This document shows positions 6,771 through 24,388 of a stretch of 64,000 nt of DNA, in pieces. Numbering within the stretch: position 1 is the stretch's first letter; each line of letters opens with the position of its first letter. The translations under genes were made by a program, and so were the position numbers. The stretch lies in contig JAJPHS010000152.1 in NCBI GenBank assembly GCA_021325175.1, positions 16,148 to 80,147 of the forward strand, written 5' to 3'. Under the pieces are notes generated by a model, which made no database searches, was not told where the DNA came from, and was given only the letters and a program-made list of their open reading frames with translations. Source of the DNA: Terriglobia bacterium. Lineage in GTDB: Bacteria > Acidobacteriota > Terriglobia > Bryobacterales > Bryobacteraceae.

Positions 6771-7963
6771 GCGGAAATGCGGCGCCACTCCACTGTCGTT
6801 CGGAAATTCGCCAGCCCCGCTACATCGCGCGCGTCCACGACGGAAAACGAGATGATGTCATCGACCCAGTCCTGGCTGTATCCTTCGCGATACTGCGTGG
6901 CAACGGTCAGTGTATAGTCTTGGCGGGTCAAAAGGCAATCGAAAGTGAAATCGATCTCAAAAAGTTCGCCGGCGGCGAGGCGGCCGAGATCGATGCCTTC
7001 GATGCGGGTGTTGGTTCCGAACACGTCAATCCCCAGACGGTTTCGGATCAGCAGGCCGACCACGGGATCATCAAGATCGCGCTCGGCCCGGGCGCGGACG
7101 CGAACCGTGACCGGCTCGCCCGGATGCAGCGCCGCAATTGGTGCGCCATCCGCGCCGATCAGTTCCGCGCTCAGAATGCGGCTTGCTCCGTCGCCGTGGC
7201 GAAAGGTTCCGCTGGCCGTTTCTTCGCGCGGCGCCTGCTCGCGATCGAGCACCATGCCGACGTATCGATTCACGACATCGCTGGGCGGCCCGCAGGCGGC
7301 AACGCGCCCGCCGATCATCAGGGCCGCGCGGTCCGATAATCGCTTGACCAAGCCAAGGTCGTGGGAAACAAACAGGACCGTGACGTTGTTTTGTTTGAGC
7401 TCCTCGAATTTTTTGATGCAGCGGTTGGCGAAAATCGCGTCGCCCACGGCGAGCGCTTCATCAACAATAAGGATTTCCGGCTGGACGTGGATCGCCGTCG
7501 AAAATGCGAGCCGCACATACATCCCGGTGGAATATTCCTTCACCGGGCGATCGAGAAACGCGCCGATTTCCGCGAATTTTTCGATCGCTGGAAACACGCG
7601 TTCCATTTCGCGGCGCGACATCCCGAGAATTTCGCCGTTCAAAAAAACGTTCTCGCGTCCGGTGAACTCCGGATTGAAGCCGGCGCCCAGTTCGAGCAGC
7701 GCCGCGATGCGCCCATGACGGATCACACGCCCGCGAGTCGGCTCCAGAATCCCGCTGACGATTTGCAGCAGCGTGCTTTTGCCGCTTCCGTTCGGTCCGA
7801 TGAGGCCGAAAACCTCGCCGCGCTCAACGGTCAGATTCACGTCGCGCAGCGCCCAAAATTCCGCGGGAGAAGAATGTTTCGAGAACGGAAAAATTTCCAG
7901 CAGACGGTCCAGCGGCCGCCGGTACAAACGATAAAGCTTGGAAACGTTCTGGACCTGAAGCAA
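6767..7963 (-). CDS. Wzt-like polysaccharide ABC transporter ATP-binding protein with C-terminal extension
   Basis: Walker A GPNGSGKST, YSTGMYVRLAFSTAIHVQPEILIVDEALAVGD, C-terminal Wzt-type beta domain. Confidence 0.85.
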   Translation of the reverse strand: MLQVQNVSKLYRLYRRPLDRLLEIFPFSKHSSPAEFWALRDVNLTVERGEVFGLIGPNGSGKSTLLQIVSGILEPTRGRVIRHGRIAALLELGAGFNPEFTGRENVFLNGEILGMSRREMERVFPAIEKFAEIGAFLDRPVKEYSTGMYVRLAFSTAIHVQPEILIVDEALAVGDAIFANRCIKKFEELKQNNVTVLFVSHDLGLVKRLSDRAALMIGGRVAACGPPSDVVNRYVGMVLDREQAPREETASGTFRHGDGASRILSAELIGADGAPIAALHPGEPVTVRVRARAERDLDDPVVGLLIRNRLGIDVFGTNTRIEGIDLGRLAAGELFEIDFTFDCLLTRQDYTLTVATQYREGYSQDWVDDIISFSVVDARDVAGLANFRTTVEWRRISA

Positions 7964-7975
7964 CCCTTCAGTTTA

Positions 7976-10756
7976 TCAAGGGCCCATTCGCAGACTACGC
8001 CGGAAGGGAGCCGCAAGCGGCGTCGCGTAGCCGACCAGACAGTATTGATCGAGTGCGAAGAGCACAACGCTTTCAAATCCCTTGCCCAACGCGCTCCGCG
8101 CTTCCTTGAGCCACGGCGTCGTCGGATCGTTGACGCCCACCAGGTGTGAGCTCTGCGCCGACGGAAAACTTATGCTGGATGGAAAAGTGATCGACGATTC
8201 CGCCAAATCGAGATTCCGGCTGAAAGTAAAGCCAAAATTTTCCGTCTTCAGAACCGCGAGCGCGGACGGCGTCCAGGCGGATTGCGGAAAGTTGATCGCC
8301 TGGTTGAATGAGGTTTGGTTTGTGTCCCTCGGATAAAGCACCTCGAACCGGCAGTTCGGCTGCGCTGCCCGCGCATATGAGGCAAGCGTGTTCGTAAAAT
8401 TCCCGATGAGCGATGAAAGGAACGCGGCCACCTCCGGATAGCTCGCCGGATCGACTGTATTCGTCGTGATCACCGGCATGGAAAATCCGTACTGCGCCAA
8501 AAACTGCGCTTGCGTCCAGGCATCGTAGAACGGCATTCCTGAAAAGTTTGTTCCGGCTCCGTCGTTTGGGAAATACCACCACTGTACTTCGCCGAATTGC
8601 AAAAACGGCTGCAATCCAGCCGATGCCTGAAGGTCCGCCATCAGCGCGTAAGCCTGCTGCCAAAAGGCCAAGCTGGCGGAAGAAAAATTGGTTTGCAGCG
8701 AAGGCGTCGGCAAAAGAATCGGATCGCCGGCCGGACCGCGCTGCGCAATCCCCGCCGCCGCGGACGGATCGCCGTTGCCCAGCTCCATGCTGAACGCCGC
8801 CGTCGCTTCAATTCCGTAACTTTGAAGCGCCGCGAAAAAACTTGCGTGCCAGTCTCGCGCCGCCCGGTTCACAACCGGCGAAGCATCTAGATCGGTATAC
8901 CAGTTTCCGTCGATTCCGCCGGCCAAAGCCGCCCCGGACGCGGTCACGCTGAAATTGCTGCTGGTGGTGGACGCCGAAATTCCGATCGAGTTGCCCGCAG
9001 CCCCCATGGCGCGCGATTGTATCGTCAGAACGTTTCCCGCGGCGCTGGCCCAAACCGCCGTATAACCGCGGTTCAGTTCAATCGCGAATGCCGTGGCCAT
9101 CATTTCGGCGGTCATTCCCATGTGGACCAGTTTGGTCAGCGTTAGCGTTGATCCGGATTGCACCAAATCCAGCGTTACCGTGGAACTGAACTCGGGCGTT
9201 CCGGAAAACGTCACGGTCGCCGTGGCGTAAGCCGTCCCCTGGCGAATGATTTCGTAAAACCACAGCGCGCCGCAATAGTGATTCTGCCGGCCCTTAAAGC
9301 CGAGCGAATCGATCATCCAGGCGGTGCGCTCCGGCGCCAGCGCAAGCGAATGCTCGGTGTCCCAGTCCGTCGCCAAGGTGATCGCAGACTGAGCCGGAAA
9401 CACCGGGAGCGCCGTCGTGGGCACGGCCAGTTCGATGAAGTCGAAATAGAAATCGGCCGCAGCCGGTCCGCTGTGCGTGAGGGTCACCTGATGCGATCCC
9501 GCGCCGTAGGATCCCACCGGGTATCGGAACAATACATCCTCCCCGGCGATCAGCAGATTCGCCACGCCCGCTGTGGAGCCATCCACTGTGATCGCGACCT
9601 GCGCGCCATTTCCCGTATAACGCAGCCCCAAGTATAGTGTGTGGCTCTGAACGGCATCATAAGTACACGAAACCGAATTCCCCGGCGTTGACGTATAACT
9701 GATCGTTCCGCCCGAATAATTTCCCGCCGATCTGCTCCACCCGCCCGCGGGAGAGTAGATGACGGCGGGATCATCATCTTCGATCCGTAGACTCCCCGGA
9801 CCAGCCACGGAGTAATTCCGATTCGAACCAGTTACCGTCCAGTTGGAAACAACGACGGCAAATTCGCTGCGCTGGTAAGCGCCGGATTGCAAAGCCGCCG
9901 CATACGTCCAGCGCAGTTTTCGGATGCTTTGGGTTGGAATGGCTACCGGGTTCCCGCTCAAATCCGGAGACGTATAACCCTGAAGCGAACTGAAATCGAG
10001 CGTCACCCGCCATTGCGTGGGCGACGTTCCATTCGCGAATGTTTTCCACGGCGCATCCCAGGTCTCGGCTCCGGTCGAAAACGTATACATGCCGAAGATG
10101 TTTCCATTCGCGCCCGCCGTGCTCGTTGCGATCGGCTGCCCTGAAGTGTAATAAACGCGAATCGTATTCCCATTCGCCGCCGCCTTCAGAAGCGCCGAGA
10201 ATGAATTGATGCTCGCCGCCAGATTGGTAATGATCGTGGCGAGCGTGTCGCCGCCGAAAACCTGGTAAGTATACTGCTCCTGGAAAAACGCGAGCCCGAC
10301 AGAATCGCCCGCCGCGGCGGTGCCCGATAACGTGAAATCGGCGTAAGCGCACTGATAACTGCCCGCCACCGGTGTCGCATGGGAGAGCAGTGGCACCCGG
10401 TAGATCGTCTCCGTTCCGCCGTCCGGTGTCGCCCATACCCGGAGTGACGGCCAGTCCACCGTCGCGTACAAGGTCGAGTCTATGGGAATGCAGTTGCTGC
10501 GCGTCTCATCATAAGTCAGAACTAACTGGCTCAAATCGCCATCGGGCAGATTTCGAAACGCCGGATGTTCGTGCGTGTTATCGCGATTCCACTCGATCAC
10601 CGCCCAGTCGGCCTGCTGGCGCCAGGAACCCGACAGCGTAAATCCGCTGCTGGATGTGCTGCTCAGTGCCGCCACCGCCGATCCGCCGCCCGAAGGTTCG
10701 AAAAAGTAGCATTGCAGGTCCTGATTCGGCGTTAACTTCTGAAGAATGTCCGGCAT
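7976..10756 (-). CDS. Large phage-type tail tip/fibre protein, TIM-barrel-like C-terminus
   Basis: 926 aa, Gly/Ser/Thr-rich beta modules then an aromatic-rich barrel-like region (MELGNGDPSAAAGIAQRGPAGDP...GEVQWWYFPNDG); last gene of the tail cluster. Confidence 0.55.
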   Translation of the reverse strand: MPDILQKLTPNQDLQCYFFEPSGGGSAVAALSSTSSSGFTLSGSWRQQADWAVIEWNRDNTHEHPAFRNLPDGDLSQLVLTYDETRSNCIPIDSTLYATVDWPSLRVWATPDGGTETIYRVPLLSHATPVAGSYQCAYADFTLSGTAAAGDSVGLAFFQEQYTYQVFGGDTLATIITNLAASINSFSALLKAAANGNTIRVYYTSGQPIATSTAGANGNIFGMYTFSTGAETWDAPWKTFANGTSPTQWRVTLDFSSLQGYTSPDLSGNPVAIPTQSIRKLRWTYAAALQSGAYQRSEFAVVVSNWTVTGSNRNYSVAGPGSLRIEDDDPAVIYSPAGGWSRSAGNYSGGTISYTSTPGNSVSCTYDAVQSHTLYLGLRYTGNGAQVAITVDGSTAGVANLLIAGEDVLFRYPVGSYGAGSHQVTLTHSGPAAADFYFDFIELAVPTTALPVFPAQSAITLATDWDTEHSLALAPERTAWMIDSLGFKGRQNHYCGALWFYEIIRQGTAYATATVTFSGTPEFSSTVTLDLVQSGSTLTLTKLVHMGMTAEMMATAFAIELNRGYTAVWASAAGNVLTIQSRAMGAAGNSIGISASTTSSNFSVTASGAALAGGIDGNWYTDLDASPVVNRAARDWHASFFAALQSYGIEATAAFSMELGNGDPSAAAGIAQRGPAGDPILLPTPSLQTNFSSASLAFWQQAYALMADLQASAGLQPFLQFGEVQWWYFPNDGAGTNFSGMPFYDAWTQAQFLAQYGFSMPVITTNTVDPASYPEVAAFLSSLIGNFTNTLASYARAAQPNCRFEVLYPRDTNQTSFNQAINFPQSAWTPSALAVLKTENFGFTFSRNLDLAESSITFPSSISFPSAQSSHLVGVNDPTTPWLKEARSALGKGFESVVLFALDQYCLVGYATPLAAPFRRSLRMGP

Positions 10757-10762
10757 GGGCTG

Positions 10763-13700
10763 CTATAAACGGATAATTACCGTCAGGTCCCGCCCCGGTG
10801 TGCCGGAAGCTCCCGGCACCGATAGAATGTCCAGGAAAACCTGAGCGCCTCCGCTCAGCGGCGGTAGCCCGAATCCATTCACGGAATTCGATATCGTTGC
10901 GCCATCCGGGATCGTCAAGGCGCAATAAATTGCGCTGCCCTGGCGGAGTTGAAGCTGCACTGCTCCGCCGCTCGGCGCCTGGCCAAGCACCGCGAAGATG
11001 TCGCGCGCGGCAAGCGAGCTCTCCACGACGAGCGGTGGCGCCGCCCCAGCCTGAATCGCAAGATATCCGTCCACCTGGATCGAAAGTTGCCCGCCGGCAA
11101 GCGTTCGCAATCCTTGGTCGGCCGTCCCGCCGAAAGACACCCCCGTCGACGGACTATTCCCGTGAACGTTGGTCACATAGAATTCAGCCGCGCCGATGCG
11201 TACGTCCGGCAAAAAGATCGATGCGCTATAACTTCCGCTTGCGGGACTCCCGAAAAAATCACCGACGAATGGCACGATCGTGACATCTCTTTGCAGAGGA
11301 TACGCCAGCGCGCCCGCCGGATGCGCCGCGGCCGTGCTTCCGTGCGATCCCCGGCTGATCTGATATTGCGTGCCCCCGCCTTCAACCGCGATCACCTCGA
11401 CGATCTCGCCCTCGATTTGAATCAAATCATCAATCCCCGACGGACCCGCGGCATTCAGAGTTATCGTCGTGTCCGTCGCAGAGATCCCCGCCGCAAGGCT
11501 AAAGCCGGTCGGGCTGCTCAGCTCGTTCCAATAAAACAGGGTCAACGTTCCCGCCGAAATGGTGTGCGTATTTGTCAGATCGGTAAATCCGATTCCAACC
11601 AGATCCACCGTTCCCTGCGCCGCCAAACTCAACCCAAAGGCAGGACCCGGCGGAATGTCCGCGTCCACCCCGCCGCCCGCCGCGCCGCCGATCTGCCACC
11701 GCGTCACCGGGTTCAGCTCCGGAGAGCTCTCCTGATTTAGCGCGTTCGCCGATCGCCCCGCAATCTCTACCGTCGCTCCGTGCTGATTCGGCGCCTGAAT
11801 CAGCGCCGGACTCGTCGCGCTGAATCCGCCGAAATTCCACGTCGAATTGGCGACCACGAAGTAGCTGGTCGCGTCGGGTGCGATGGTCCAGGCCGGTGAA
11901 ACCGTGATCGTCGTCGGCGTGTTTGCGATCACTGCGCGCTCCTGCGTCGCGCCGGTTCCGCGAGTGATTCTTACCACTGCTCCGGCGAATTCGTTTGCCG
12001 CCATCCCCAGGCCGTTGTTGCCGATCGTTGTCGGTGAATAGATTTGCGCCGGCGCTTCCGGTTGAAGCTCCAGCCTCCAGTAGAAATTCGCATGATCGTA
12101 ATTTCCATCCGGCGGACCTTGCAGTCGCGGCGCGCCGCCGGTATCGGTGTACGTCGCGCCCACGGCGACATTCGAAGCAATGAGCAACAATTCCTGTGGA
12201 TTCAATCCACGATAGACATTAAATCCCGTGGTTCCCGAAGAAAAACTGAGAGAGGAAAGCGTAACCGTGTTCGTATTTGACCCGGATGGGATCGTCGCCG
12301 GCACTACAAAAGACAGCGCGCTCTCACCGCCGCTTCCGTCCAGCGCGCTGATCGCGTAGTAATACGTTTGTCCTCCCGCGAGCGTGCCGCCCGTCGGGCT
12401 TACCGCTGCATTCAAACTCAGCAGCGGAATCGAGACCCCCGTTGCCGCTGGTTTCGCCGGCGGATCGAAAGCGACGCTGAGTGAAATCGTGAACGTCCCA
12501 TCGCTTGCCTCGCTCGATGTCTCCGTAATCCCGAACTGATCAATTCCGTTCGCATCGATCACGCTCCCGACAAGCGGACGGGGCAGCCCGACTCCACCGC
12601 CCGGCTGGCGTCCCACTCCCGTCGTGCCCGCATTCCCCGTCGTGTACCACTCGTCGTCGTGCCACTGCGCCGTGACTTTCAGCGTTTGAAAATTCTGCCC
12701 CGGCATCAAACGCACCACTCGAAACGGCTGCCGCTCTAATCCTTCCTTGACGTAGGTGACGGTAATAATGTCCCCCGGCGCCAGCCCGATTCCTTTCACA
12801 GTCGTCTCAAAATCAATGTATTGGTAGCCGTGGATGCTCTTATTAAGCTGAAGCGTGAGGGCGCGCGTCGCCTGATCGAAATTCGGCAAACCCAACGCCA
12901 GATAAGTCGCGGTCACCTGCCGGTTCGTCCGTAGCGCATCGTCGACATCCACCACCGACACGCTGTCCTGCTGATATTGATTGAACTCGTCTTGAAATTC
13001 CACGCTCAGCCGGTTCGCCGTCGCCGCAGTACTCTGCGACCACAACCGGATCGAAGGATCTCCGTTCGCCTTCCGGGCCAATCCCGAAAACGTCGCCGAC
13101 CCGTCGCTGAATTCATACGCCGGCCAGCCGCCGTTCAACGGCTCCGTGCTGTTGCTTCCTTCTGGCAGTGCGGGCTGTTGCAGCGCAAGGCTGTTTTCGA
13201 CCCTCAGCGTCAGCAGCCCGCCGTTGTCATACGTCAATATCAGCGACGACCCGTTTCGAATTCCGATCGCCACCTCCGCCGCGCTTCTTGGCTGGGTCAG
13301 CACCAGGTTGCACTGAAACCGCGGAGTCGCCACCGTGTTGCCGTTCATGTCCGTTGTTTCGATTGGCTGCGCGCAATAGTCAGCCGCCGTAGCGAAACTC
13401 TCCAGATCGATTTCGCTCGTCAGCCATCCGCTCCGCCGCAGCACGTCCAGCAACACCCACGCCGGATTGTTTGTGAAAGACGTTCCAAGCGAATGTCCGG
13501 ACGCATCAAACTGCTCCAGATGCAGGCCATTCAGCAATACTCGAATTTGCGGCAGTGACGTTCCGTCGCTGATCGCGTTCGGGACCACCACGCTCATCAT
13601 CGCCATGCTTCCGTAAGGATCGCCAAGCGGATTGCCGTTCGAATCCGTAAAATTCGGATCGAACGCGCCATTGCGCGTCCCGCTTGTGACGATGTTGAAC

Positions 13701-14689
13701 CATCCCGTCGCCGTCATATTGACGCCGCTTTGTCCCTGCGGAATATTGATCCCGTTCACCAGCACCGTAATCGCGCTGTCGATCGGCCCCATCCCCAGCA
13801 GCACTTCCATGCGCGTCAGATTCCCGTCATTTCGCGCGAACACGATCGGCGGTTCATACCACGCCGTCCCGTAAACCAGCGGAACGTAATTGTTATAAAT
13901 CGTCAGGTTGTCCTGAACAGCGGAAAGTTGTTTCCCGCTTTCCCCGAAGCTGCGCACCAGAATCTGCGGCGGAACAAACTCGATTCCGCCGAACCGCGCC
14001 GTGGCATTCGCATTCGCGTCGCTCGAAAACATTCCGCGCGCAATACAGGACGCTCGCGAATAATCGCAGGACGTATAAGGAACGCCGCCATTCAAATTCC
14101 CCACGCCGCCGCTCAAATCCGCGGAGTATCCGCACTTGTAAAGCGTTGAATAGGAGCCCTTCGCGCCGCCATCCAGCGCTTCCTGCCGCTGTGCCGCGTT
14201 CGCCGGAAAAATCCACGGGCATAATCGCTGGATCTGCGTCTCCGGCAAGATAATGCGTTGCAGGCTCAGGCGATTATTGAACGAAACTCGAAAGCTCGTC
14301 TCGGTGATTTCCTCCGGCGGATTCGCAACGCCCTGAAACATCACTCTGGACTCCGAAGCCGCCGCGCCTCCTGCAAGATCGTAAAACAGGAAAGTAATCG
14401 TGACCTGCGCGCCCTTAAATCCCACCTCGCGCTCGATTTGTGAATAATGCGAATCCGCGTTCGCCAGCGTAACGCTGATCAGCGCGGTCCCGTCCAGCCC
14501 GTCATTCGATGACGCCCGCAGGTCATACAAGTTGTGCTTGATCAATCGGGCGCTGTACGCGTTGCCGTTCACCGTAACCGCGTGCGTCGCCCATCGCTCC
14601 ACCGCGCCCGAGCTCAGCGTGCAATCGAACAAAAACAGCGGTGTCGGAGGAGCTTCCGTCTCCTTCAAAACATCGATCGTCATGGGCAT
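10763..14689 (-). CDS. Tail tip / baseplate hub protein with gpL-like N-terminal region and FN3/Ig-like domain
   Basis: 1308 aa in hub position; N-terminal region plus four-Cys segment (LCPW..KCGYS..TSCDYS..SCIARG), hub-like middle, GFNVYRGL beta-domain. Confidence 0.65.
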   Translation of the reverse strand: MPMTIDVLKETEAPPTPLFLFDCTLSSGAVERWATHAVTVNGNAYSARLIKHNLYDLRASSNDGLDGTALISVTLANADSHYSQIEREVGFKGAQVTITFLFYDLAGGAAASESRVMFQGVANPPEEITETSFRVSFNNRLSLQRIILPETQIQRLCPWIFPANAAQRQEALDGGAKGSYSTLYKCGYSADLSGGVGNLNGGVPYTSCDYSRASCIARGMFSSDANANATARFGGIEFVPPQILVRSFGESGKQLSAVQDNLTIYNNYVPLVYGTAWYEPPIVFARNDGNLTRMEVLLGMGPIDSAITVLVNGINIPQGQSGVNMTATGWFNIVTSGTRNGAFDPNFTDSNGNPLGDPYGSMAMMSVVVPNAISDGTSLPQIRVLLNGLHLEQFDASGHSLGTSFTNNPAWVLLDVLRRSGWLTSEIDLESFATAADYCAQPIETTDMNGNTVATPRFQCNLVLTQPRSAAEVAIGIRNGSSLILTYDNGGLLTLRVENSLALQQPALPEGSNSTEPLNGGWPAYEFSDGSATFSGLARKANGDPSIRLWSQSTAATANRLSVEFQDEFNQYQQDSVSVVDVDDALRTNRQVTATYLALGLPNFDQATRALTLQLNKSIHGYQYIDFETTVKGIGLAPGDIITVTYVKEGLERQPFRVVRLMPGQNFQTLKVTAQWHDDEWYTTGNAGTTGVGRQPGGGVGLPRPLVGSVIDANGIDQFGITETSSEASDGTFTISLSVAFDPPAKPAATGVSIPLLSLNAAVSPTGGTLAGGQTYYYAISALDGSGGESALSFVVPATIPSGSNTNTVTLSSLSFSSGTTGFNVYRGLNPQELLLIASNVAVGATYTDTGGAPRLQGPPDGNYDHANFYWRLELQPEAPAQIYSPTTIGNNGLGMAANEFAGAVVRITRGTGATQERAVIANTPTTITVSPAWTIAPDATSYFVVANSTWNFGGFSATSPALIQAPNQHGATVEIAGRSANALNQESSPELNPVTRWQIGGAAGGGVDADIPPGPAFGLSLAAQGTVDLVGIGFTDLTNTHTISAGTLTLFYWNELSSPTGFSLAAGISATDTTITLNAAGPSGIDDLIQIEGEIVEVIAVEGGGTQYQISRGSHGSTAAAHPAGALAYPLQRDVTIVPFVGDFFGSPASGSYSASIFLPDVRIGAAEFYVTNVHGNSPSTGVSFGGTADQGLRTLAGGQLSIQVDGYLAIQAGAAPPLVVESSLAARDIFAVLGQAPSGGAVQLQLRQGSAIYCALTIPDGATISNSVNGFGLPPLSGGAQVFLDILSVPGASGTPGRDLTVIIRL

Positions 14690-14692
14690 CCG

Positions 14693-15487
14693 TCAACCCT
14701 CCGTATCCACGATCTGGATCACCGCATCGTAAACATCGATCCCTTGCGCCGTCACGCTGAAGTTGTCGCTGCCAAATCGCGTCTTGGAGTAAACTCCCCC
14801 CTTCGCGTTCGTTTGCTTGTAATCGGAAGGCGCCAGTTGCGCCTCTACCTGCATCCCGAACACGTCCACCGTCGCCCCCGAATCGAGCTGCGCTCCAAAA
14901 GTCACCTGCGAAGTGCTCTGCCCGAGGTTGCCCGCCAGCACAATCCGCGACCACGCTCCGCTCAGCGCGAACGTTTTCGCCAGATTCGCCCCCGTCGTAA
15001 AAGCCGTCAGCGTCACATTCGATGTTCCCGCCGCCCGCGCCCAGGCGCTAATGCAATACTCGAAAGTTCCCGGAACGCTCAACACCTGCGCCACCGAAGC
15101 CGCCGCCTCTCCCGTATTCGTGATGCGCGTCGCGCGTGTCGTACCCAGCGGATCCGCAACCCCGGACGTCAACTGGATCAGAGGCCCGTTCGTCCAGGCG
15201 CCCGCACCCAAATTCTCGCTCTGCGCCAGCAGATTCCCCGTCGGATCCAGGAACGTGAACGTCTGCCACATTCCCGACGTCGCCTGATATAGCGCTTCGA
15301 TCGCGTTCCACTCCGCGGCCGTCATACCCGTTGCGTGCAGTTCCCATGCCTTCGCCGCGCCATCCGGATCGCCAAAAATCCACACGCTTCCATCCGCCAT
15401 TACGTTCATCGCCGTCCGCTGAACGGATGTCTTCTTCACCGGATACAACGCCGAAGCGCCCGTCACGAGTTGTGGAAAAACAAGCAT
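14693..15487 (-). CDS. Phage minor/distal tail protein with carbohydrate-binding-like insert
   Basis: 264 aa; FPQLVTGASALYP start shared with the neighbouring gene product; jelly-roll-like middle (ATRITNTGEAAASVAQVLSVPGTFEYCISAWARA). Confidence 0.55.
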   Translation of the reverse strand: MLVFPQLVTGASALYPVKKTSVQRTAMNVMADGSVWIFGDPDGAAKAWELHATGMTAAEWNAIEALYQATSGMWQTFTFLDPTGNLLAQSENLGAGAWTNGPLIQLTSGVADPLGTTRATRITNTGEAAASVAQVLSVPGTFEYCISAWARAAGTSNVTLTAFTTGANLAKTFALSGAWSRIVLAGNLGQSTSQVTFGAQLDSGATVDVFGMQVEAQLAPSDYKQTNAKGGVYSKTRFGSDNFSVTAQGIDVYDAVIQIVDTEG

Positions 15488-15846
15488 CAGCTTCGGTTCT
15501 CCCGAATCACCAACTGCATCCTCCCGTCCTGCGGACCCGCAAACTCCACCTCCAGCCGGTCGTTCGCGAAACTACAGCTCGGATAGACCGTTCCATCGAA
15601 TGGATCGGTGAACGAAAACATCCCCGCGCGGCCGCCCTGTTCTTCAAAAAACGACTCCACCGCCGCCAGCTCCGATTCATCGAGCCGTTCGTAATGGATC
15701 GTCCAACTCCTCAGCGGCGCTCCATACCCCGCAAACCGTTGCTCGCTCCCATCCAGGAAACGAATCACCTGCGTCGGCAAATTTCGCCGCCGATCCGCTG
15801 GATACTGCGCAACCACCCCGGTTTTTAATTGCGGAAACGAAGCCAC
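15487..15846 (-). CDS. Phage distal tail-like protein (DUF2460-like)
   Basis: MASFPQLKTGVVAQYPADRRRNLPTQVIRFLDGSEQRFAGYGAPLRSWTIHYERL. Confidence 0.55.
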   Translation of the reverse strand: MASFPQLKTGVVAQYPADRRRNLPTQVIRFLDGSEQRFAGYGAPLRSWTIHYERLDESELAAVESFFEEQGGRAGMFSFTDPFDGTVYPSCSFANDRLEVEFAGPQDGRMQLVIRENRS

Positions 15847-15847
15847 G

Positions 15848-16429
15848 CTACACCGCCCGGACGACGTCGTTTAATGTCGTCGATGTCAGCATCGCCTGTC
15901 TCACCGCCTGCGCGATATCGTCGCTGTGATCCAGAAAGGATTGGCTGTCCAGAGCCTGAACCTGCACCGTGATCTGCGTCGATTGCGCCGGCACGGGATT
16001 CGGCAACCCTCCCGAGCCTTCATTCACCGCGAACACCCCCGCCTGGCTCGAACCGATCCCCAAAGTCGCGTTCACCGTCGCCGGAGCTATATAAGGAACC
16101 AGCGGCGCAGTCTCACTCGAGCCTCCGCCGCCAAACAAGCTCATCAAGCCCGAAATCAGCGGGCTCAGCCCCAATCCGAATCCCAGAACGCTCTCCAGCG
16201 TGCTTCCGACTGACTTCGCGTTCGACCCGCCCTGCCCTTTTTCGCTCGTATTCTGCGCAACCGCTTCCGTGTTCTGCTCCATCGTTTCGATCTGCGTCTG
16301 ATTGATCGTTTGCAGTTGCTGCAATTGCTGCGTGATCGTCGTCAACTGATCCGACAACACGCTGCTCTGGGCCGAAGCCGCCCCGCCCAGCACTGCCGTC
16401 ACCGCATTAAGTGGATTTGTGTTCGCCAT
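15848..16429 (-). CDS. Very short tail tape measure-like protein
   Basis: 193 aa between the chaperone pair and distal tail genes; helical Gln-rich N-half, hydrophobic segment, C-terminal QVQALDSQSFLDHSDDIAQAVRQAML typical of tape measure C-termini. Confidence 0.55.
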   Translation of the reverse strand: MANTNPLNAVTAVLGGAASAQSSVLSDQLTTITQQLQQLQTINQTQIETMEQNTEAVAQNTSEKGQGGSNAKSVGSTLESVLGFGLGLSPLISGLMSLFGGGGSSETAPLVPYIAPATVNATLGIGSSQAGVFAVNEGSGGLPNPVPAQSTQITVQVQALDSQSFLDHSDDIAQAVRQAMLTSTTLNDVVRAV

Positions 16430-16745
16430 TTGCTCCCCTCCGCCATTCTCTTTCGAGCATCAAAAACGCATCCGCTTGCCGTGCGTCCAACTCTTCCAAT
16501 CGCCTGTCGCCCGCGAACTTCCAGGCGAAAAATCGTTCCAGCCACTCCAGGCTCTGCGGCGTAATCAGCGATTTCGGGCATTCCTCCGCCGATGCCCGCC
16601 CGCGCGCCCAAACCAGTTTCCGCGCGCCGCGCAGCTCCGCCGGCAGCCACCCGCAGCGCCTCCGGATCTCCAGACCCTGTCTCCGGCATTCGTCGCATCT
16701 CCACGCGGCCTGGCTTGAGCTTTGAAAATGGAATGCGACAATCAG
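16407..16745 (-). CDS. Tail assembly chaperone, -1 frame extension (T-like), reached by frameshift
   Basis: Open -1 frame LIVAFHFQSSSQAAWRCDECRRQG... entered at slippery AAAAAAC 16751-16745; ends 16407. Confidence 0.65.
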   Translation of the reverse strand: MIVAFHFQSSSQAAWRCDECRRQGLEIRRRCGWLPAELRGARKLVWARGRASAEECPKSLITPQSLEWLERFFAWKFAGDRRLEELDARQADAFLMLEREWRRGANGEHKST

Positions 16746-16751
16746 TTTTTT
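16692..16751 (-). promoter_or_regulatory. Programmed -1 ribosomal frameshift signal
   Basis: Minus strand AGA AAA AAC TGA (X_XXY_YYZ = A_AAA_AAC in zero frame), 5-nt spacer TGATT, then GTCGCAT(16739-16733)/ATGCGAC(16698-16692) stem. Confidence 0.75.
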
Positions 16752-17122
16752 CTTTCTTCTTCCGTCAACCCGCATTCCGCTTTGATGCGAGCCAGAATCT
16801 CCATCGCCAATTCCACAGGCCCGGCTTCGATCAACGCCTGCGGCGTTGCCGGAGTCCCATCGATCTCAAGCCCCTCCACTCCGATCAGTCCCCATTCGAG
16901 ATACGCCCGCTCGATCTCCGCCGCCATCACCACGCCCTCGATCTTTTCTCGAACCTCGCTCCCCGCGTCGAGATACTCCGCCTTCCGCCCGATCTCGCGA
17001 ATCCTCCGCGCCAACTCCATCCGTCTGCCGAACGATACCCGCGCAATCTCAAATCGAACCCCCGGCGCCGTTGCGGATTCGCACCAGATCGAACTCGCGT
17101 ACTGGTTAGCCGAACGCGACAT
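16742..17122 (-). CDS. Tail assembly chaperone (G-like)
   Basis: 126 aa between tail tube and tape measure; ends ...EEERKN* at the slippery site. Confidence 0.65.
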   Translation of the reverse strand: MSRSANQYASSIWCESATAPGVRFEIARVSFGRRMELARRIREIGRKAEYLDAGSEVREKIEGVVMAAEIERAYLEWGLIGVEGLEIDGTPATPQALIEAGPVELAMEILARIKAECGLTEEERKN

Positions 17123-18278
17123 AAAGTTCGTCTCCCGGCGTGCCCTGCGCCCTGCTGTTCTGAAATTTCCATTGGAGGCGCGTCTCGCTGTCGTCGTATT
17201 GCGGAACCGCCGGCACCATCGCCGGCATGTACGCCCCGAACAACTGGTTCGTCTGCTGCCCCAACTGCAACATCACCGCGATCGGCGACCGCTGCCGCGC
17301 CGCCTGATACAGCGCCGCCGTCTGCGCGTCCGCCATCTCGAAAATTTCGAAGTTAAACGTAATCTTCCTCACCCCCGCCGCGATGCATTGCGCGTAATTA
17401 CTGCCGAATTCCTTCACCCGTAAATCCACGTCGTTGTCCAGCGTCAATTCTCCCGCGGTCAGCGTGAAAAACTGGTTTGGCGGCGTGCCCATCCACACTT
17501 CCCCCAGGTGACCCGGAACAATCGTGTAATCGAATCCCGCCATCGCCGGCTCCGCCGGAAACGACGCCAGCCCTCCCTGTCCACTCACGAAGCTCGCGCT
17601 ATCCAGCAGATCCCGCGACGGTCCCGCAAACGCAAACTCCTGATAATCCCCATTGATCTTGATCTCCATCCGATCCATGGCCGACCCTTCCACGATCCTC
17701 TGTACCGCGTTCGCCGGATCCCAGTAATCGAAAATGCTCACGCCGCTCAGCGATTCGCCCAACGGAAACGTGATCGTCGTCCCGAACATCGATCCCGCCA
17801 CCGGCGGATTCGTGAAAGGCGCGTTCAGGAAAATCGTCTGCGCATCCTGAATCGCCGCGACGAATCTCATCTCGCCCGAAAAAGTCACCCCTTGCCCGGC
17901 CGCCAGCCCATGCGGCGCCGTAAATTGAATCTCCGTCTGATTCGTCACCGACGCGACCGTCCCGCCGTTATAAAAAACCGGCGTCCCTCCCATCGCGCCC
18001 TGAAACAGCGGACCCTGCGGCGGCTGCGCCGTCTGATTCGACCACTCCGTCATCAACGTGCTCAGTTGAAACGTCGTAATCTCGCGAATCGTGTTCGGCA
18101 GACCCACAAATGTGCGGCTCCCGGTTTTATCCTTCCGCCCCGTTGTCTCCGGAACCTGTTTCGCCGCCAGTTTTACCAGCGGAATCCGGTTCTGGCTCGT
18201 AATCGCCGGCACGGCGCCGTAATTTGCCTCCAGCGCCACATAAACCCGTTCATTATTCGAAGAAATATAACAAGACAT
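17106..18278 (-). CDS. Phage tail tube protein
   Basis: 390 aa; position between terminator-like gene and chaperones; SNNERVYVALEANYGAVPAIT...LTLDNDVDLRVKEFGSNYAQCIAAGVRKITFNFEIF. Confidence 0.65.
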   Translation of the reverse strand: MSCYISSNNERVYVALEANYGAVPAITSQNRIPLVKLAAKQVPETTGRKDKTGSRTFVGLPNTIREITTFQLSTLMTEWSNQTAQPPQGPLFQGAMGGTPVFYNGGTVASVTNQTEIQFTAPHGLAAGQGVTFSGEMRFVAAIQDAQTIFLNAPFTNPPVAGSMFGTTITFPLGESLSGVSIFDYWDPANAVQRIVEGSAMDRMEIKINGDYQEFAFAGPSRDLLDSASFVSGQGGLASFPAEPAMAGFDYTIVPGHLGEVWMGTPPNQFFTLTAGELTLDNDVDLRVKEFGSNYAQCIAAGVRKITFNFEIFEMADAQTAALYQAARQRSPIAVMLQLGQQTNQLFGAYMPAMVPAVPQYDDSETRLQWKFQNSRAQGTPGDELYVAFG

Positions 18279-18305
18279 TGATTCCAGTCCTCTGATTCCT
18301 GGCCG

Positions 18306-18803
18306 CTAGCTCGATAAATCCACTTCAAATGTCACCCGCGCCACCTGCATCAGATTCTTACCGCCCTGCTGCACCGGTTCGAATGCCACCTCGTATCCGC
18401 CGGCGTAAAACATCCCCTGTCCCCAGCTCCCCCGGTTCGAATCGAGCACCTGCGTCACCGCATCGACGTACAGCCGCGTCTGATCCTCCAACCCCTCCAT
18501 CCGGTCCTGCGACACCCGAACCTCGGCCACCGTCTGTATCTTCCCGGAAAATTTCCGGAATTTTTCCGTCAACGAATTCCGCACCCGGTTCGAATACACA
18601 TGGACCACCGGATATTTCACCGCCGCCGCCCGTTCCGCGATCGCCGCCGGCACGTTCTGGCTGATAATCTGCCCCGGCGGAATCGCCGCAAGCGCAATTC
18701 CCGAATCCGCCGCCAGCTTGGAAACCGCCGGCGCGATCCCGTTTTCCGAATCCGACAAAAATGTGGCAAATTGTTTCGCCGCGATGCTCGCCGTCTGCGC
18801 CAT
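18306..18803 (-). CDS. Tail terminator/completion-like protein
   Basis: 165 aa, position between connector and tail tube; VVHVYSNRVRNSLTEKFRKFSGKIQTVAEVRVSQDRMEGLEDQTRLYVDAV. Confidence 0.45.
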   Translation of the reverse strand: MAQTASIAAKQFATFLSDSENGIAPAVSKLAADSGIALAAIPPGQIISQNVPAAIAERAAAVKYPVVHVYSNRVRNSLTEKFRKFSGKIQTVAEVRVSQDRMEGLEDQTRLYVDAVTQVLDSNRGSWGQGMFYAGGYEVAFEPVQQGGKNLMQVARVTFEVDLSS

Positions 18804-18804
18804 C

Positions 18805-19578
18805 CTATCCTCGCCTCAGTGTCGGACCGCCGATTACGTAAACGTCCGGCTTCTGGCCGTCTCCCGGCGCTCGTCCCGCGAATAGTCCCGTTGCCGGCAT
18901 CACGAAGCTCTGCCCCGCCGGCACAGGTGACGCGGTTTGCAGCGCCAGGCTCGTCGAGCTCAACCCAACGTACACATTGAACCCCGTCGCCACCGCCGGC
19001 GGATTCACCCCCGCGACCACCAGCGTCATCCCCGCCCCGGTTTCAAACGTCGTCACCGGACTCGGCGCGCCCTCTTCCCCATTCGCCGCAACCCATGTAA
19101 TCGCGATGTAGTAAATCGCCGTCGCCGCGCCTGCCGCCGCCGTCATGCTCAGCGCCGGCACCCCCGCTTCCGGAATCGGCGTATTCACCAGTCCAATCCC
19201 GAAGATCGCCGTCTGCGACCGCGCGTCCGCCGATAATTTCCGATACTCCTGCCACTTCGGCAAATATCGATCGTTAAGCTGGTTGTTGAACGCATCCCGA
19301 TACACCATCGCCAGCGTGTGCAGCGCGTGCCACCGCTTCATTTGCGGCGAAACCACCACGTCCGCGACTCCGATCTGCCGCCGCACCATCGACTGCGGAT
19401 CATAACCGCGCGTATGATCCAGCAAAATATCCAGCACGTCCTCGGAAATTTCCTCCGTCGCCAGCGAGAGCTTCACTCCAAGGTCGATCGCCTCCGTCGC
19501 CGCCACGTTCAGAATCGCTGATTCGTACGCCGTTAAATCCTCCGGCGTGTTCGGACTCCCATCTGTTAACAGAGCCAT
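18805..19578 (-). CDS. Head-tail connector-like protein with C-terminal Ig/FN3-like domain
   Basis: 257 aa; N-terminal helical adaptor-like region, C-terminal IAITWVAANGEEGAPSP...ATGFNVYVGLS. Confidence 0.45.
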   Translation of the reverse strand: MALLTDGSPNTPEDLTAYESAILNVAATEAIDLGVKLSLATEEISEDVLDILLDHTRGYDPQSMVRRQIGVADVVVSPQMKRWHALHTLAMVYRDAFNNQLNDRYLPKWQEYRKLSADARSQTAIFGIGLVNTPIPEAGVPALSMTAAAGAATAIYYIAITWVAANGEEGAPSPVTTFETGAGMTLVVAGVNPPAVATGFNVYVGLSSTSLALQTASPVPAGQSFVMPATGLFAGRAPGDGQKPDVYVIGGPTLRRG

Positions 19579-19842
19579 CTATCGCCTCTTCGTCCGCCAA
19601 CCCGCGTCATGAGCCGCCTTCCACTTCCGCTCCGCTTCCGCGCGAAACTCCGCCGCCGCTTTCTCGCTTGCCAGCTCCGCTTTCTCTTCGAGGATCATTC
19701 GCGCCGCCACCGCCCGCGGAACTTCCGTGCGCACTCCCGCCCGTCCCCCATCAGGAGTCGCCAGACTCGTGATCACCACCGATTCCTCGCGAATGTCCGC
19801 CTCAATTTGTCGAAGTTTTTGATAATAAGCCCGCAAATCCAT
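19579..19842 (-). CDS. Small virion-cluster protein of unknown function
   Basis: MDLRAYYQKLRQIEADIREESVVITSLATPDGGRAGVRTEVPRAVAARMILEEKAELAS; internal ATG 19842 preferred over 19911, which lies within the terminator hairpin. Confidence 0.5.
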   Translation of the reverse strand: MDLRAYYQKLRQIEADIREESVVITSLATPDGGRAGVRTEVPRAVAARMILEEKAELASEKAAAEFRAEAERKWKAAHDAGWRTKRR

Positions 19843-19874
19843 CCTGACTCCTGACTGTCTTCGCCTCGCCCGGC

Positions 19875-19931
19875 AAAAAAATGGGGCAGGCCTCGCCACA
19901 GCGGATCTCAACCGCCTGCCGCGCCTGCCCC
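19875..19931 (-). terminator. Intrinsic terminator directly after major capsid gene
   Basis: Minus strand GGGGCAGGC(19931-19923)...GCCTGCCCC(19891-19883) followed by ATTTTTTT (T run 19881-19875). Confidence 0.8.
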
Positions 19932-19941
19932 AGCTCCGAAC

Positions 19942-20853
19942 CTAGCTCAACACCTGCACCGCGAAATTATTCCGCAGCGCGCCCACTCCGTACAGCACGT
20001 CCACCGTGAACTGCTGCGCCAGCGTGTTCGGCTGATAGCTCATGGTCACGCGCATGCCGAAATTGCCCAGCTCCGCGTACTCCGCGATCGCTCCCGTTCC
20101 CGGCAGCGGTTGCGGCAGCTTGCGCACCACCAGTCCGATCGCGTCTCGCGCGAACGCCAGATTGTGCGTCGTGATCGGCGAGCTCCCCGTCGTCGGCACA
20201 AACTGCGAGCGGAAAATGTAAAAATCCTTCATCTTCCCCACCGATCCGTCGATCATCGCCCGCAGCCCCGCCTCGCCCACGGTATTAAACTCGCTGAACC
20301 GCGGGATCTGCCGCAGCTCCGAGTACGTGCTCGGGCTCACCACCAGATACTTCGCCGAACTCGACGGAACCTTCGCCGAAAATAACGCCGTCTCCGCCGC
20401 GTCCACCACCGATTCCGTGATCGCCGTGCCCCCCGTGCCTACCGCCGTATTCGCCGTGAACATCGGATACAGGCTCAGAATGTCGCTCTCGATGCTCTCC
20501 GCGATCGCCACCACCGCCGGCTGCATGTACAGCTTCAGCAGGTCCGGAACCGCCAGCACCTTCGCTACGTCCGGAATCTGGAACGACGCCTCGACGTGAT
20601 TCGTCAGCACGATCTGCGCGTTTCCCGGAGGCGGATTCTGCAACTGCACCGCCGCCCCGTCCACAATGTTGTTCGCCACCAGCGTCGGCGGAATCGGCAC
20701 ATTCACCGTGTCCCCGGCCCGCGCCAGCGTCGCCTCGTAGTCGCGATTTACCAGGTTCCCCATCACCAGGTTCCCCATCAACGCCGGTAACGCATCCGCC
20801 GCCACCAGCTTGACAATCGCTGTCGCGACATTTGTCGAAGTAATTGCTCCCAT
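19942..20853 (-). CDS. Major capsid protein
   Basis: 303 aa; MGAITSTNVATAIVKLVAADALPALMGNLVMGNLVNRDYEATLARAGDTVNVPIPPT..., P22-like coat style; right position and size. Confidence 0.75.
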   Translation of the reverse strand: MGAITSTNVATAIVKLVAADALPALMGNLVMGNLVNRDYEATLARAGDTVNVPIPPTLVANNIVDGAAVQLQNPPPGNAQIVLTNHVEASFQIPDVAKVLAVPDLLKLYMQPAVVAIAESIESDILSLYPMFTANTAVGTGGTAITESVVDAAETALFSAKVPSSSAKYLVVSPSTYSELRQIPRFSEFNTVGEAGLRAMIDGSVGKMKDFYIFRSQFVPTTGSSPITTHNLAFARDAIGLVVRKLPQPLPGTGAIAEYAELGNFGMRVTMSYQPNTLAQQFTVDVLYGVGALRNNFAVQVLS

Positions 20854-20892
20854 GTTTTCTCCTCTTTCTCCTTATTCCTGATCGAGAGAGCG

Positions 20893-21411
20893 TCATGCGC
20901 CGCGCAGCGTCTGCGCCGCCACGCGAGCCACTTCCTGCCTCACCCTATCCAGTTCCTCCGCGCTCATTCCCGGCCGGATTCTCGATAAATCCACGCCATT
21001 CGCCTCCGGACCTTTCTGAGCCGCCCTTGCTCCCGAACCTCCCGCCAGCCGCGCCGGCAGCAGCTCCGGATTCTCATCCACGAATTGCGCCAGGTAATCC
21101 CGCAACTCGCTTCCGCCCTGCGCCATCAATCGCCCGTCTTCGCCGCGGTATACGTCATCCTTCACCGCCCGATACGCCAGGTCGATCTTCGTCACCCCCA
21201 GCCTCTGTAATTCCGCTCGAATCGCCGCGCTCCGCTCCGCCGCCTCCGCCGCCTCTCGCGCCCGCTGATTCTCCGCGATCAGCTCATTCACCTTCTTTTC
21301 GAGCGTCTCCCGTTCCGCAAATCCCATCTCCTGCATCACCGCCCGCACCACCTCCCGAATTTCCTGGCCACCGGCCACGGGCGACAGGCCCCTGTTTTCC
21401 TCACCACCCAT
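20893..21411 (-). CDS. Capsid scaffold-like coiled-coil protein
   Basis: Charged helical protein between portal and MCP (ETLEKKVNELIAENQRAREAAEAAERSAAIRAELQRLGV); start MGGEENRG near 21411. Confidence 0.55.
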   Translation of the reverse strand: MGGEENRGLSPVAGGQEIREVVRAVMQEMGFAERETLEKKVNELIAENQRAREAAEAAERSAAIRAELQRLGVTKIDLAYRAVKDDVYRGEDGRLMAQGGSELRDYLAQFVDENPELLPARLAGGSGARAAQKGPEANGVDLSRIRPGMSAEELDRVRQEVARVAAQTLRGA

Positions 21412-22789
21412 GCTCAATCTCCTCCACAATCCGATCCTTCACCTCCTGCCGCGCGTCGCTGACTAATTTCATCGCCAATTTCTTGAAAATCTCTTTTTTT
21501 AACGTCGGCGATTCCACCCCTAGCGCCAATACCTGCTGCGCCTGCAATAATTCCGTCGAAAAATCCGCAATATCGAAGTCGTCCAGCCCCGCCACGCCGA
21601 TCTCGATCCCGTCTTCGCGCGCCGCCGCGATCGCCTTCAGCACCCGCCGGATTTGCTCCTTCACCGCGTCCCCGTACGCCCGCAGCACCTCCTGCGTAAT
21701 CGAAAAATCAAGCTGCTTGCTGATCCCGGATTGCACCGCCGCCTTGTCCAGCGACCCTCCCGCTTGCGGCAGATAGCAAACCCGATAGATCTCCTCCTGC
21801 AAGCTCGTCAGATTCTCCGCCGCGATCTGATAAACCTTGCCCTCCGGCTCCGTCCAGCCAAACTTGTCTCCCGGAGCAAGCTGGATGTAGTAACTCTCGC
21901 CCACCATCTGGCTCCACTCGCGCTCCGAATACACCACCGGCATCGCGAAAAGCCCCATCGTCAGCGCCCAGCCGAGCGCGTTCGATTTATTGAAATGCTC
22001 CAGTTGCAGCAGCCCCGCCCGGTTCAGCAGCCACAACCCCTCGGAAATCCGCAGCGGAATCAGCGGCACCCGCCCCAGCTTCGCCAGCCCGTGCGCCCCC
22101 GAATCGATCAGCTTGATCGCCCCTTCGCCGTCGTCTCTTTGATAAATCCGGAAGCTTCGCTTGTCGTAGTACGCCCATCGCGTCTCCGTCCGCCAATCCG
22201 CATCCTCCACCCGGTCTTTCTTCAGCGCCTTGGTCCGGATCACCACCCACTCGAAATTCCCGCGCTCGTCCAGGCTCCAGTTGATAACGTCTTCGGCCGC
22301 GTAATCCACCAGATATGCCCGCGACGCCCCGCTCGCGTCCTCTTCCGCCCGGCTTCCCGCGCGAATCTGGGTCCGCGGAAAATCCACCAGCACGAAGCTC
22401 ACGCCCGAAATCAACGCCTCGATGAACTGCCGCCGCCAAAAATCAGTCAGCGAGCTCCCCTTGCGGTCCACATCGCTCACCAGCTCCGAATAAAACGACT
22501 TCGCCGCCTCGTCCCGGCCCTCGAAAATCACCGCCGGCTGCTCGCGAAACAAAGTCGCCGCGTACCAATCCACAATCGAGCCGATGTAATTTTCGTAAAA
22601 AACCCGATTCAGCCGCTCCGCGTAAACGTCGGCCGGCTCCCTTTGCCTTCGCACCAGATAATTCTGCGCGTTCAGCTTTAATTGCTCCCCGCCCGCATAC
22701 AAATCCCGGTAAAGCCGCCAAATTGCTTTCCGCGTTAAATAATGTGGATGTTCCCGATCAATATCAAACAAGAAAGTCCTCCCACCCAA
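21401..22789 (-). CDS. Phage portal protein
   Basis: 462 aa; PHYLTRKAIWRLYRDLYAGGEQLK...NYIGSIVDWYAATLFREQP..., immediately downstream of terL. Confidence 0.75.
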   Translation of the reverse strand: MGGRTFLFDIDREHPHYLTRKAIWRLYRDLYAGGEQLKLNAQNYLVRRQREPADVYAERLNRVFYENYIGSIVDWYAATLFREQPAVIFEGRDEAAKSFYSELVSDVDRKGSSLTDFWRRQFIEALISGVSFVLVDFPRTQIRAGSRAEEDASGASRAYLVDYAAEDVINWSLDERGNFEWVVIRTKALKKDRVEDADWRTETRWAYYDKRSFRIYQRDDGEGAIKLIDSGAHGLAKLGRVPLIPLRISEGLWLLNRAGLLQLEHFNKSNALGWALTMGLFAMPVVYSEREWSQMVGESYYIQLAPGDKFGWTEPEGKVYQIAAENLTSLQEEIYRVCYLPQAGGSLDKAAVQSGISKQLDFSITQEVLRAYGDAVKEQIRRVLKAIAAAREDGIEIGVAGLDDFDIADFSTELLQAQQVLALGVESPTLKKEIFKKLAMKLVSDARQEVKDRIVEEIEHGW

Positions 22790-22811
22790 TCCCTGCCCAC
22801 TGCCCCCAAGG

Positions 22812-24110
22812 CTACAAAAGCCTCTCGCCCCGCTCCCCCACGCTATCGGCCGATCTCCTGCCTTCCTGCCAAATCAGGTATCCCAGCGCATCCGATAAGT
22901 GCGTCCGTCGCGGATCCCGGTCCTTGTCGATCACCATGCTGTTCTCCTTGTATGTCACCTGCTCCAGATCCTTGATCAACTCCGTGCACTTCGCGTCCAC
23001 CCGCAGCATCCGCCGCCCCTCGGCCGATTCCAGCTTGGCGTTCATCAACGCCACGCGTTCTCTCACCGGCGGATTCGATTTCGGCACTTTGAACTGCACT
23101 TGCCCGTACTCGCCGCTCCCGAAATACTCTTTCAAAATCCTCAAATCCGTCGTCCCCGACGTTTGCAGCCGCGCTCCTGTCGCATCCGCGTACACCACCA
23201 GCCCACGCCCATGCGACGGAAACCGCCTCGCAAACTCCTCGCAAGCCTCCAGAGTCGACGCTCGCGACAGCACGATCTCGTCGAGCACCACCACTTCCTC
23301 CCCGCACGCCTGCGCCACCACCGAGCACATCGGATTCACGTTGAAATCCAAAGCCCACAACAGCGGCAGCGCTTCATTCAGCGGAGCCTCGATCACGTTC
23401 TCTTTCCGGCTGAACGCGTGATAAACACGCCCGGCGTGCAGGTCCAGATATTCGCCCAGCGCCTCCTGCTGATAAAATTTTGCGTCATAACTGCTTTTCA
23501 GCCGTTCGTAATAATCTGGAATTCGTTCTAATAAAAAGCGATTTTCAAACGGTTTTGCCTGAACCGTCTCGTATCCCTCAATCGGATTCGCGATAAATCG
23601 CTCATAAACCCAGTCGTATCCCTTGGGCGTCCACACCGCAAACCCGCACAGCCGCTTCGCCTTCGGATCGCGCAGCCGCCCCTCCAGCCGAAGCCACGCC
23701 TCTTCCTGCGTATATGTCAGCTCATCCAGCCCGAACCACGCCAGATTGCTTCCCCGGAGCCGCTCAAACTCCTCCACCGGCCGGAGCAAAATCCGCGATC
23801 GCGTCTCGCGCAGCAGCAGATAGTTATCCGCGCGATTCAGCTCATGCGGAATCTTGTTCTTTTCGAGAATCTCGATCAGCGCCGCCAGCGTCGCATCCCG
23901 CAGCATCGGATACGTCGGCGCACCGATCAAACCCGTCCGCCCGGTGTTTAAATACGCCAGCTTGATCGCCTCATGACACAGCGCCTGGCTTTTTCCCGAC
24001 CCGATCGGCCCCGAAAATCCCTTGAATCGCGCCCGCGATTCGTGAAATTTCTGCTGCGACGGCAGCGCCTGATACCCTATTTCTCGGATTCTGTCGCTGG
24101 TTCGACCCAT
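22812..24110 (-). CDS. Terminase large subunit
   Basis: Walker A GPIGSGKS, Walker B-like AWFGLDEL, nuclease acidic motifs WALDFNVNP, VVYADATGAR, THLSDALGYLIW; intact. Confidence 0.85.
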   Translation of the reverse strand: MGRTSDRIREIGYQALPSQQKFHESRARFKGFSGPIGSGKSQALCHEAIKLAYLNTGRTGLIGAPTYPMLRDATLAALIEILEKNKIPHELNRADNYLLLRETRSRILLRPVEEFERLRGSNLAWFGLDELTYTQEEAWLRLEGRLRDPKAKRLCGFAVWTPKGYDWVYERFIANPIEGYETVQAKPFENRFLLERIPDYYERLKSSYDAKFYQQEALGEYLDLHAGRVYHAFSRKENVIEAPLNEALPLLWALDFNVNPMCSVVAQACGEEVVVLDEIVLSRASTLEACEEFARRFPSHGRGLVVYADATGARLQTSGTTDLRILKEYFGSGEYGQVQFKVPKSNPPVRERVALMNAKLESAEGRRMLRVDAKCTELIKDLEQVTYKENSMVIDKDRDPRRTHLSDALGYLIWQEGRRSADSVGERGERLL

Positions 24111-24388
24111 GTAACCTTAATGTCCCGAGGCTCCTCGTCCATCAGCTCTTTTTCAAGCTGCACCAGCCGGATGTAATCCCCCAAAGTCGCCTTCACCTCA
24201 TCGCTTTTCAGCTTCGCCTCGACCTTTTTTAGAATCTTCTTCACCGCCGCCGCCTTCGACCGCGGCCGCCTCTTCGGACCCGCCTCCGCATTCATGCCGG
24301 AGCTCGCTATTTTCGGAACAGCTTTTTTAGGCGCAGCCTTCTTGCCCTTCGCCGCCACCCTCCGCCGCGTTCTGACTCGTTCACTCAC
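24077..24388 (-). CDS. Terminase small subunit candidate with Lys/Arg-rich N-terminus
   Basis: 103 aa, overlaps terL start; basic RRRVAAKGKKAAPKKAVPK..KRRPRSKAAAVKKILKKVEAKLKSDE then LGDYIRLVQLEKELMDEEPRDIKVTWVEP. Confidence 0.5.
   Translation of the reverse strand: MSERVRTRRRVAAKGKKAAPKKAVPKIASSGMNAEAGPKRRPRSKAAAVKKILKKVEAKLKSDEVKATLGDYIRLVQLEKELMDEEPRDIKVTWVEPATESEK

Follow-up and report, generated by a model that had tools for sequence, protein, structure and literature searches.

A vertically inherited head-tail gene cluster of probable gene transfer agent type in the acidobacterial family Bryobacteraceae

Members of the family Bryobacteraceae (order Bryobacterales, phylum Acidobacteriota) carry a compact cluster of packaging, head and tail genes derived from a tailed phage, which we describe here from a 64,000-nucleotide stretch of one such genome (hereafter the window; genome G000, contig C71, positions 16148-80147), where it forms an intact, unbroken 16.4-kb run on the minus strand at positions 7976-24388. 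It is very likely that the cluster encodes a domesticated, vertically inherited particle that is maintained by selection. The particle is probably an independently domesticated viriform of the Bryobacteraceae resembling gene transfer agents (GTAs), and, by analogy with these, gene transfer would rather likely be its main role. This interpretation is favoured because of the family-wide presence of the cluster, its fixed gene order and size, purifying selection, congruence with rpoB, common flanks and the scars of internal deletions, and also because of phage relatives that have replication genes and long tape measures, a reduced TerS protein and a preserved slippery site. On balance we lean towards an independent, family-wide GTA lineage, the first in the Acidobacteriota according to the papers searched, with a P22-type head, a T5-type tail and identifiable phage cousins among its hosts, and with a tail-tip enzyme that would have stayed under selection in some species after loss of the particle. 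Labels beginning with G, g and L denote genomes, genera and loci as numbered in the present analysis.

Results

Distribution and inheritance of the cluster

Of the 186 genomes of the order with a completeness of at least 90%, 147 carry the gene for the major capsid protein (MCP); they represent 63 of 69 genera, and the gene is nearly always present as a single copy. Complete copies share the same gene order and mostly span 16.0-16.8 kb. The named carriers are metagenome-assembled genomes of the Bryobacterales and Bryobacteraceae, including Candidatus Sulfopaludibacter and Candidatus Solibacter; in a sample of 396 genomes from the whole phylum, the only carriers of the MCP gene were two from the genus of the window, in addition to five distant matches. 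A sequence-only reading of the window had proposed vertical inheritance, and this is borne out by an occurrence that is family-wide rather than patchy and by boundaries that are constant rather than strain-specific, as well as by the syntenic flanks, substitution ratios and tree congruence described below.

For 45 genomes, a tree of nine concatenated cluster proteins had 21 of 42 splits in common with the rpoB tree (after label shuffling, 0.25 on average and 4 at most), and patristic distances in the two were correlated (r=0.68, p=0.0002), with the cluster evolving at about twice the rate of rpoB. These comparisons indicate that the element is transmitted vertically as part of the host genome, with a few supported tree conflicts. 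When the window is compared with the sister species G012, the ratio of nonsynonymous to synonymous substitution (dN/dS), proposed earlier as a check, lies at 0.04-0.23 in all genes other than the short TerS, for which it is 0.50. In most species, TerL (the large terminase subunit), portal and MCP rank with the best-conserved genes, which points to strong selection on packaging.

Chromosomal site and missing phage functions

Profile matches on both sides of the cluster agree with the earlier assignment of its flanks to the host chromosome. Genes for Wzt, a sodium symporter, an M24 peptidase, GH31 and phosphoglycerate kinase lie on one side, and DUF4159, glyoxalase and beta-lactamase-family genes on the other. 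The wzt gene follows downstream at no more than 100 nt in genera g1, g7, g29 and g61, and a related ABC-transporter ATPase takes its position in G112, G137 and G157. An ilvB-ilvH-ilvC-cimA set (named from the sequences of its genes rather than by family search) stands divergently upstream of the cluster in g8, g35, g48 and g50, and downstream of it in G026 (g5). Since the cluster of G137 lies between the ilv operon and the ABC-transporter gene, the copies in different genera may descend from an old common chromosomal site. The flank synteny that the sequence-only reading had named as a test thus holds within the genus for wzt and M24, and flanks recur across genera, but DUF4159 is kept in no species other than the sister species G012.

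No tyrosine-type integrase (PF00589) was found on the whole 80-kb contig, no att-like direct repeats around the cluster, no tRNA beside it and no replication or integration genes in it or its flanks, and on these grounds an active temperate prophage was rejected. No regulator or lysis gene was recognised at the locus either, other loci not having been searched, so that the reported lack of phage lifecycle genes adjoining the cluster stands.

In-place deletions and tail-tip fusions

Where the MCP gene is missing, both cluster ends are often still present at the same site. In G013 (L069) and G020 (L067), an in-frame fusion joins TerL residues 1-57 to the tail tip, and in G018 (L329) the contig begins within the fusion, with the matching part of the tail tip at the contig start. 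G128 has TerL residues 1-42 joined to the tail tip, G001 and G014 have TerL residues 1-235 joined to the last 50 tail-tip residues, and G005 has a fusion of MCP to the tail tip. These scars represent at least four distinct internal deletions, not excisions. The fused open reading frame (ORF) of about 870 aa in G013, G020 and G018 remains open with a dN/dS of about 0.11 at a proportion of synonymous differences (pS) of 0.44-0.55, which suggests that the tail-tip protein serves a separate use in these genomes.

Gene content

All ORFs of the run are intact and the gaps between neighbours range from -34 to +39 nt, as the description of a single, tightly packed minus-strand run had implied. The genes and flanks are listed below in cluster order, from the TerS-like gene to the large tail tip, with the matches on which each name rests; for TerS, the 257-aa connector, the 165-aa protein and the tape measure, the name relies solely on position. 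Structural genes recognisably derived from caudoviricetes are those for TerL, portal, MCP, tube, distal tail protein (Dit) and hub.

24550..25383, plus strand: upstream flank, chromosomal DUF4159 gene (PF13709, 3e-38)
24077..24388, minus strand: TerS-like protein (position; conserved core of about 60 aa with a helix and a TerL-binding-like tail, without N-terminal DNA-binding domain)
22812..24110, minus strand: TerL, T4-type terminase large subunit, 432 aa (PF17289, 3e-6; PF03237, 8e-6; phrog_2, 5e-36)
21401..22789, minus strand: portal, 462 aa (phrog_145, 9e-54)
20893..21429, minus strand: scaffold-like protein, 178 aa (position; PF06810, 0.001, below cut-off)
19942..20853, minus strand: MCP, P22 coat type, 303 aa (PF11651, 4e-18; phrog_283, 4e-46)
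19579..19911, minus strand: small variable protein, 110 aa (conserved position)
18805..19578, minus strand: connector candidate, 257 aa (position; model with predicted local distance difference test score, pLDDT, of 91: helical N-terminus and beta domain)
18306..18803, minus strand: head-tail joining or terminator candidate, 165 aa (position and near-constant length)
17106..18278, minus strand: predicted tail tube, T5/P74-26 type, 390 aa (AlphaFold, pLDDT 84; Foldseek 8ed0, 9e-13, and 9iny, 1e-12)
16742..17122, minus strand: tail assembly chaperone, first frame (position and frameshift site)
16745..16751, minus strand: slippery heptamer A_AAA_AAC for a -1 frameshift, directly before the first-frame stop
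16407..16775, minus strand: tail assembly chaperone, extension in the -1 frame (overlapping and conserved)
15848..16429, minus strand: short tape measure, 193 aa (position between chaperones and Dit; 171-219 aa in other copies)
15487..15846, minus strand: distal tail protein (DUF2460), 119 aa (PF09343, 1e-11; profile match to distal tail protein 8gtc, 0.0025)
14693..15487, minus strand: second distal tail protein with spike-fibre domain, 264 aa (NF048003 GTA_spike_fiber, 1.2e-14, above cut-off)
10763..14689, minus strand: tail hub, J-like/Phage-tail_3, 1308 aa (PF13550, 1e-7; phrog_31, 4e-22)
7976..10756, minus strand: large tail tip with TIM barrel, 926 aa (PF23845, 4e-16; phrog_6040, 3e-24)
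6767..7963, minus strand: downstream flank, chromosomal Wzt ABC-transporter ATPase (PF14524, 4e-32)

Among 61 relatives, 37 have TerL homologues, some of which are phage-type; a search with PF03354, which represents the wrong terminase family, gave no match. The MCP is 303 aa long in nearly all copies. By the fold of its structural model, the 390-aa protein is identified as a tail tube of T5/P74-26 type, and the model of the 257-aa connector had no fold match in the PDB. The slippery heptamer is present in 74 of 76 distinct copies, compared with 0.7% of random 90-nt windows, and one of the two remaining copies has a run of N at the site; this conservation argues that the chaperone frameshift, already noticed in the sequence-only reading, is real.

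In the second distal tail protein, a weakly DUF2460-like N-terminus is combined with the GTA spike-fibre domain (NCBIfam NF048003), and the protein is likely a sugar-binding adhesin. The single-contig genome G154 (genus g58; L326) has its tail-tip gene on the opposite strand beside the hub, and the tip is strongly diverged (27-33% identity), which suggests that it was inverted or replaced.

Phage relatives in the same family

Second, divergent copies of the structural module occur in G132 (L319-L320), G185 (L312-L314) and G138 (L317) and belong to phages or prophages whose TerL, portal, MCP, tube and tail genes are homologous to those of the cluster and stand in an identical order. Unlike the cluster, the modules of G132 and G185 adjoin genes for SSB, DNA polymerase III beta, RusA, Gp157, primase, helicase or lysozyme, and their tape-measure position is occupied by proteins of 943 aa and 1144 aa, respectively, compared with 171-219 aa in the cluster. 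The phage relatives in G138 and G132 have a full-length TerS (203 aa and 196 aa, respectively, 40% identical over the full length) whose N-terminus matches phrog_6299. In the cluster, about 60 TerS residues are conserved, with the motif VKAxLGDYIRLVQLxKEL...EIxVxWVEP across genera, and the N-terminus is variable, often rich in lysine and arginine, or nearly absent (67 aa in G008). By this sequence comparison, the cluster TerS lacks the N-terminal DNA-binding domain of its phage relatives, and a TerS without such a domain is a reported hallmark of known GTAs. We read the shortened tape measure and the reduced TerS as marks of domestication.

The MCPs of the phage relatives are 59-72% identical to that of the window despite portals that are only 33-35% identical; the capsid genes would therefore evolve very slowly or have been exchanged.

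Discussion

Relation to known elements

The cluster is the element published in 2025 as the 'group (i)' Bryobacterales proviruses, which were described as widespread (PMC11924767): the viral contig IMGVR_UViG_639633060_000001 named there (16,365 bp, from Candidatus Solibacter usitatus Ellin6076) has the same genes in the same order (L395), and the sequence match confirms the identity. Paludibaculum fermentans P105, another cultured carrier, is assigned to this group in the same publication. The term 'gene transfer' does not occur in the main text of that paper, and no GTA proposal for the Acidobacteriota was found in the open-access literature, subscription papers being outside the scope of the search. 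Each scan of IMG/VR recovered at least 591-594 confirmed relatives among viral contigs. Those retrieved from the matches listed are at most 20.7 kb long (4-20 kb for L161-L240 and L332-L466, full-length ones being about 16 kb), and in eight of the longer ones the sequence examined consists of the cluster with hardly anything besides. These uncultivated 'viral' contigs represent the host-inherited cluster and probably inflate counts of acidobacterial viruses.

RcGTA (Rhodogtaviriformidae), the alphaproteobacterial type I GTA, is likewise a vertically inherited, compact head-tail operon without replication or integration genes, and shares with the cluster a TerS without DNA-binding domain, a DUF2460 distal tail protein and a spike-fibre domain; its tape measure, too, is short. 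The resemblance drawn in the sequence-only reading holds in plan but not in descent. The cluster differs in its P22-type coat, scaffold-like gene, two-domain T5/P74-26-type tube and host phylum, no protease gene was found in it, unlike in RcGTA, and membership of the RcGTA family was rejected because the capsid and tube types differ. Dit matches PF09343 (1e-11), the models TIGR02217 and GTA_megatron scored far below cut-off, the hub showing a faint megatron similarity, and no NCBIfam model matched portal or MCP, the comparison being one of models rather than of aligned RcGTA sequences. BaGTA (Bartonella) and BhGTA/VSH-1 (Brachyspira) are independently domesticated, vertically maintained phages that, by their descriptions, are set apart from the cluster by other hosts and distinct progenitors (PMC9662315).

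Proposed origin and mode of action

We propose that an ancestral phage of these hosts shed the modules for integration, replication and lysis and that a single structural operon was retained, in which the tape measure would have been shortened about fivefold and TerS would have lost its N-terminal DNA-recognition domain. The host may turn the operon on in a subset of cells, where TerL and the minimal TerS would package host DNA by the headful, without sequence preference, into P22-type heads. The short T5-type tail and its putative polysaccharide-binding tip could then deliver the DNA to kin, with lysis presumably supplied from elsewhere. ComEC and DprA, considered as recipient genes, are present in 19 of 19 genomes tested and were rejected as evidence, being universal in the set and not specific.

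Alternative explanations

Several observations weigh against a GTA of the Bryobacteraceae. The cluster is also carried by three genomes from outside the family, namely G044 (L055-L056, with a 3.5-kb insertion after the tape measure), G057 (L057-L058) and G039 (L073); G044 and G057 are sisters in both trees, which implies either that it was present early or that it was transferred long ago. Loss is quite common, the MCP gene being absent from about 20% of the 186 genomes of the order, and the cluster tree conflicts with eight rpoB splits that are well supported, for example through G161, which makes either some exchange between genera or an artefact of the marker likely. The MCPs of the phage relatives, up to 73% identical, are not separated from the cluster copies in the MCP tree (approximately unbiased test, p=0.34). 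Neither a lysis gene nor a conserved promoter motif was found; the sole clearly enriched upstream k-mer sits within the TerS coding sequence and was rejected as such a motif. The bias towards carbon-cheap amino acids reported for RcGTA-like GTAs is not evident, and this signature was set aside because composition did not differ consistently from that of the few phage homologues.

The main rival, a PBSX-like defective-phage bacteriocin whose particles package host DNA but kill competitors instead of transferring genes, seems to us unlikely, though not negligible. PBSX of Bacillus is a chromosomal defective-phage particle operon with a bacteriocin role; the cluster is an operon of this type with a gene set of the same kind, its TerL weakly matches the PBSX terminase model TIGR01547 (3e-9, 36.9 bits, below the cut-off of 105), and its tail-tip and spike-fibre proteins could determine killing specificity. 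However, no immunity or lysis gene was recognised in the cluster, the reduced TerS agrees with what is reported for GTAs, and the tail tip is conserved family-wide, without switching between strains. It is quite improbable that the 'group (i)' elements are ordinary prophages, repeatedly acquired and still excising and spreading: they were published as proviruses (PMC11924767), at least 590 confirmed matches per scan stand among IMG/VR viral contigs and there are a few supported tree conflicts, but integrase, att sites and replication genes are lacking, the viral contigs have the restricted length and content given above, and the common flanks across genera, tree congruence and in-place scars speak for inheritance.

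Internal deletions in several lineages would also be expected of a prophage decaying without present function since the family ancestor; with nearly all genes intact in dozens of genera, low dN/dS against the sister species and the frameshift site so widely kept, this is hardly credible. We give just as little weight to a particle with another role, such as delivery of a polysaccharide-degrading tail-tip enzyme with DNA packaging secondary: G013, G020 and G018 have lost the head and most tail genes and keep the fused tail-tip ORF open under constraint, yet the strong selection on packaging genes in most species argues against it.

Significance

Few GTA lineages are known. Here, a single family supplies the domesticated element across dozens of genera together with several natural deletions and with related phages that allow the states before and after domestication to be compared, and the interpretation of the cluster as a GTA-like viriform is testable, as Candidatus Solibacter usitatus Ellin6076 is reported as a cultured carrier. 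If the particle is functional, it would provide a route of gene exchange in abundant, hard-to-culture soil bacteria, and at least 590 'viral' matches in IMG/VR would be host-inherited genes, not viruses.

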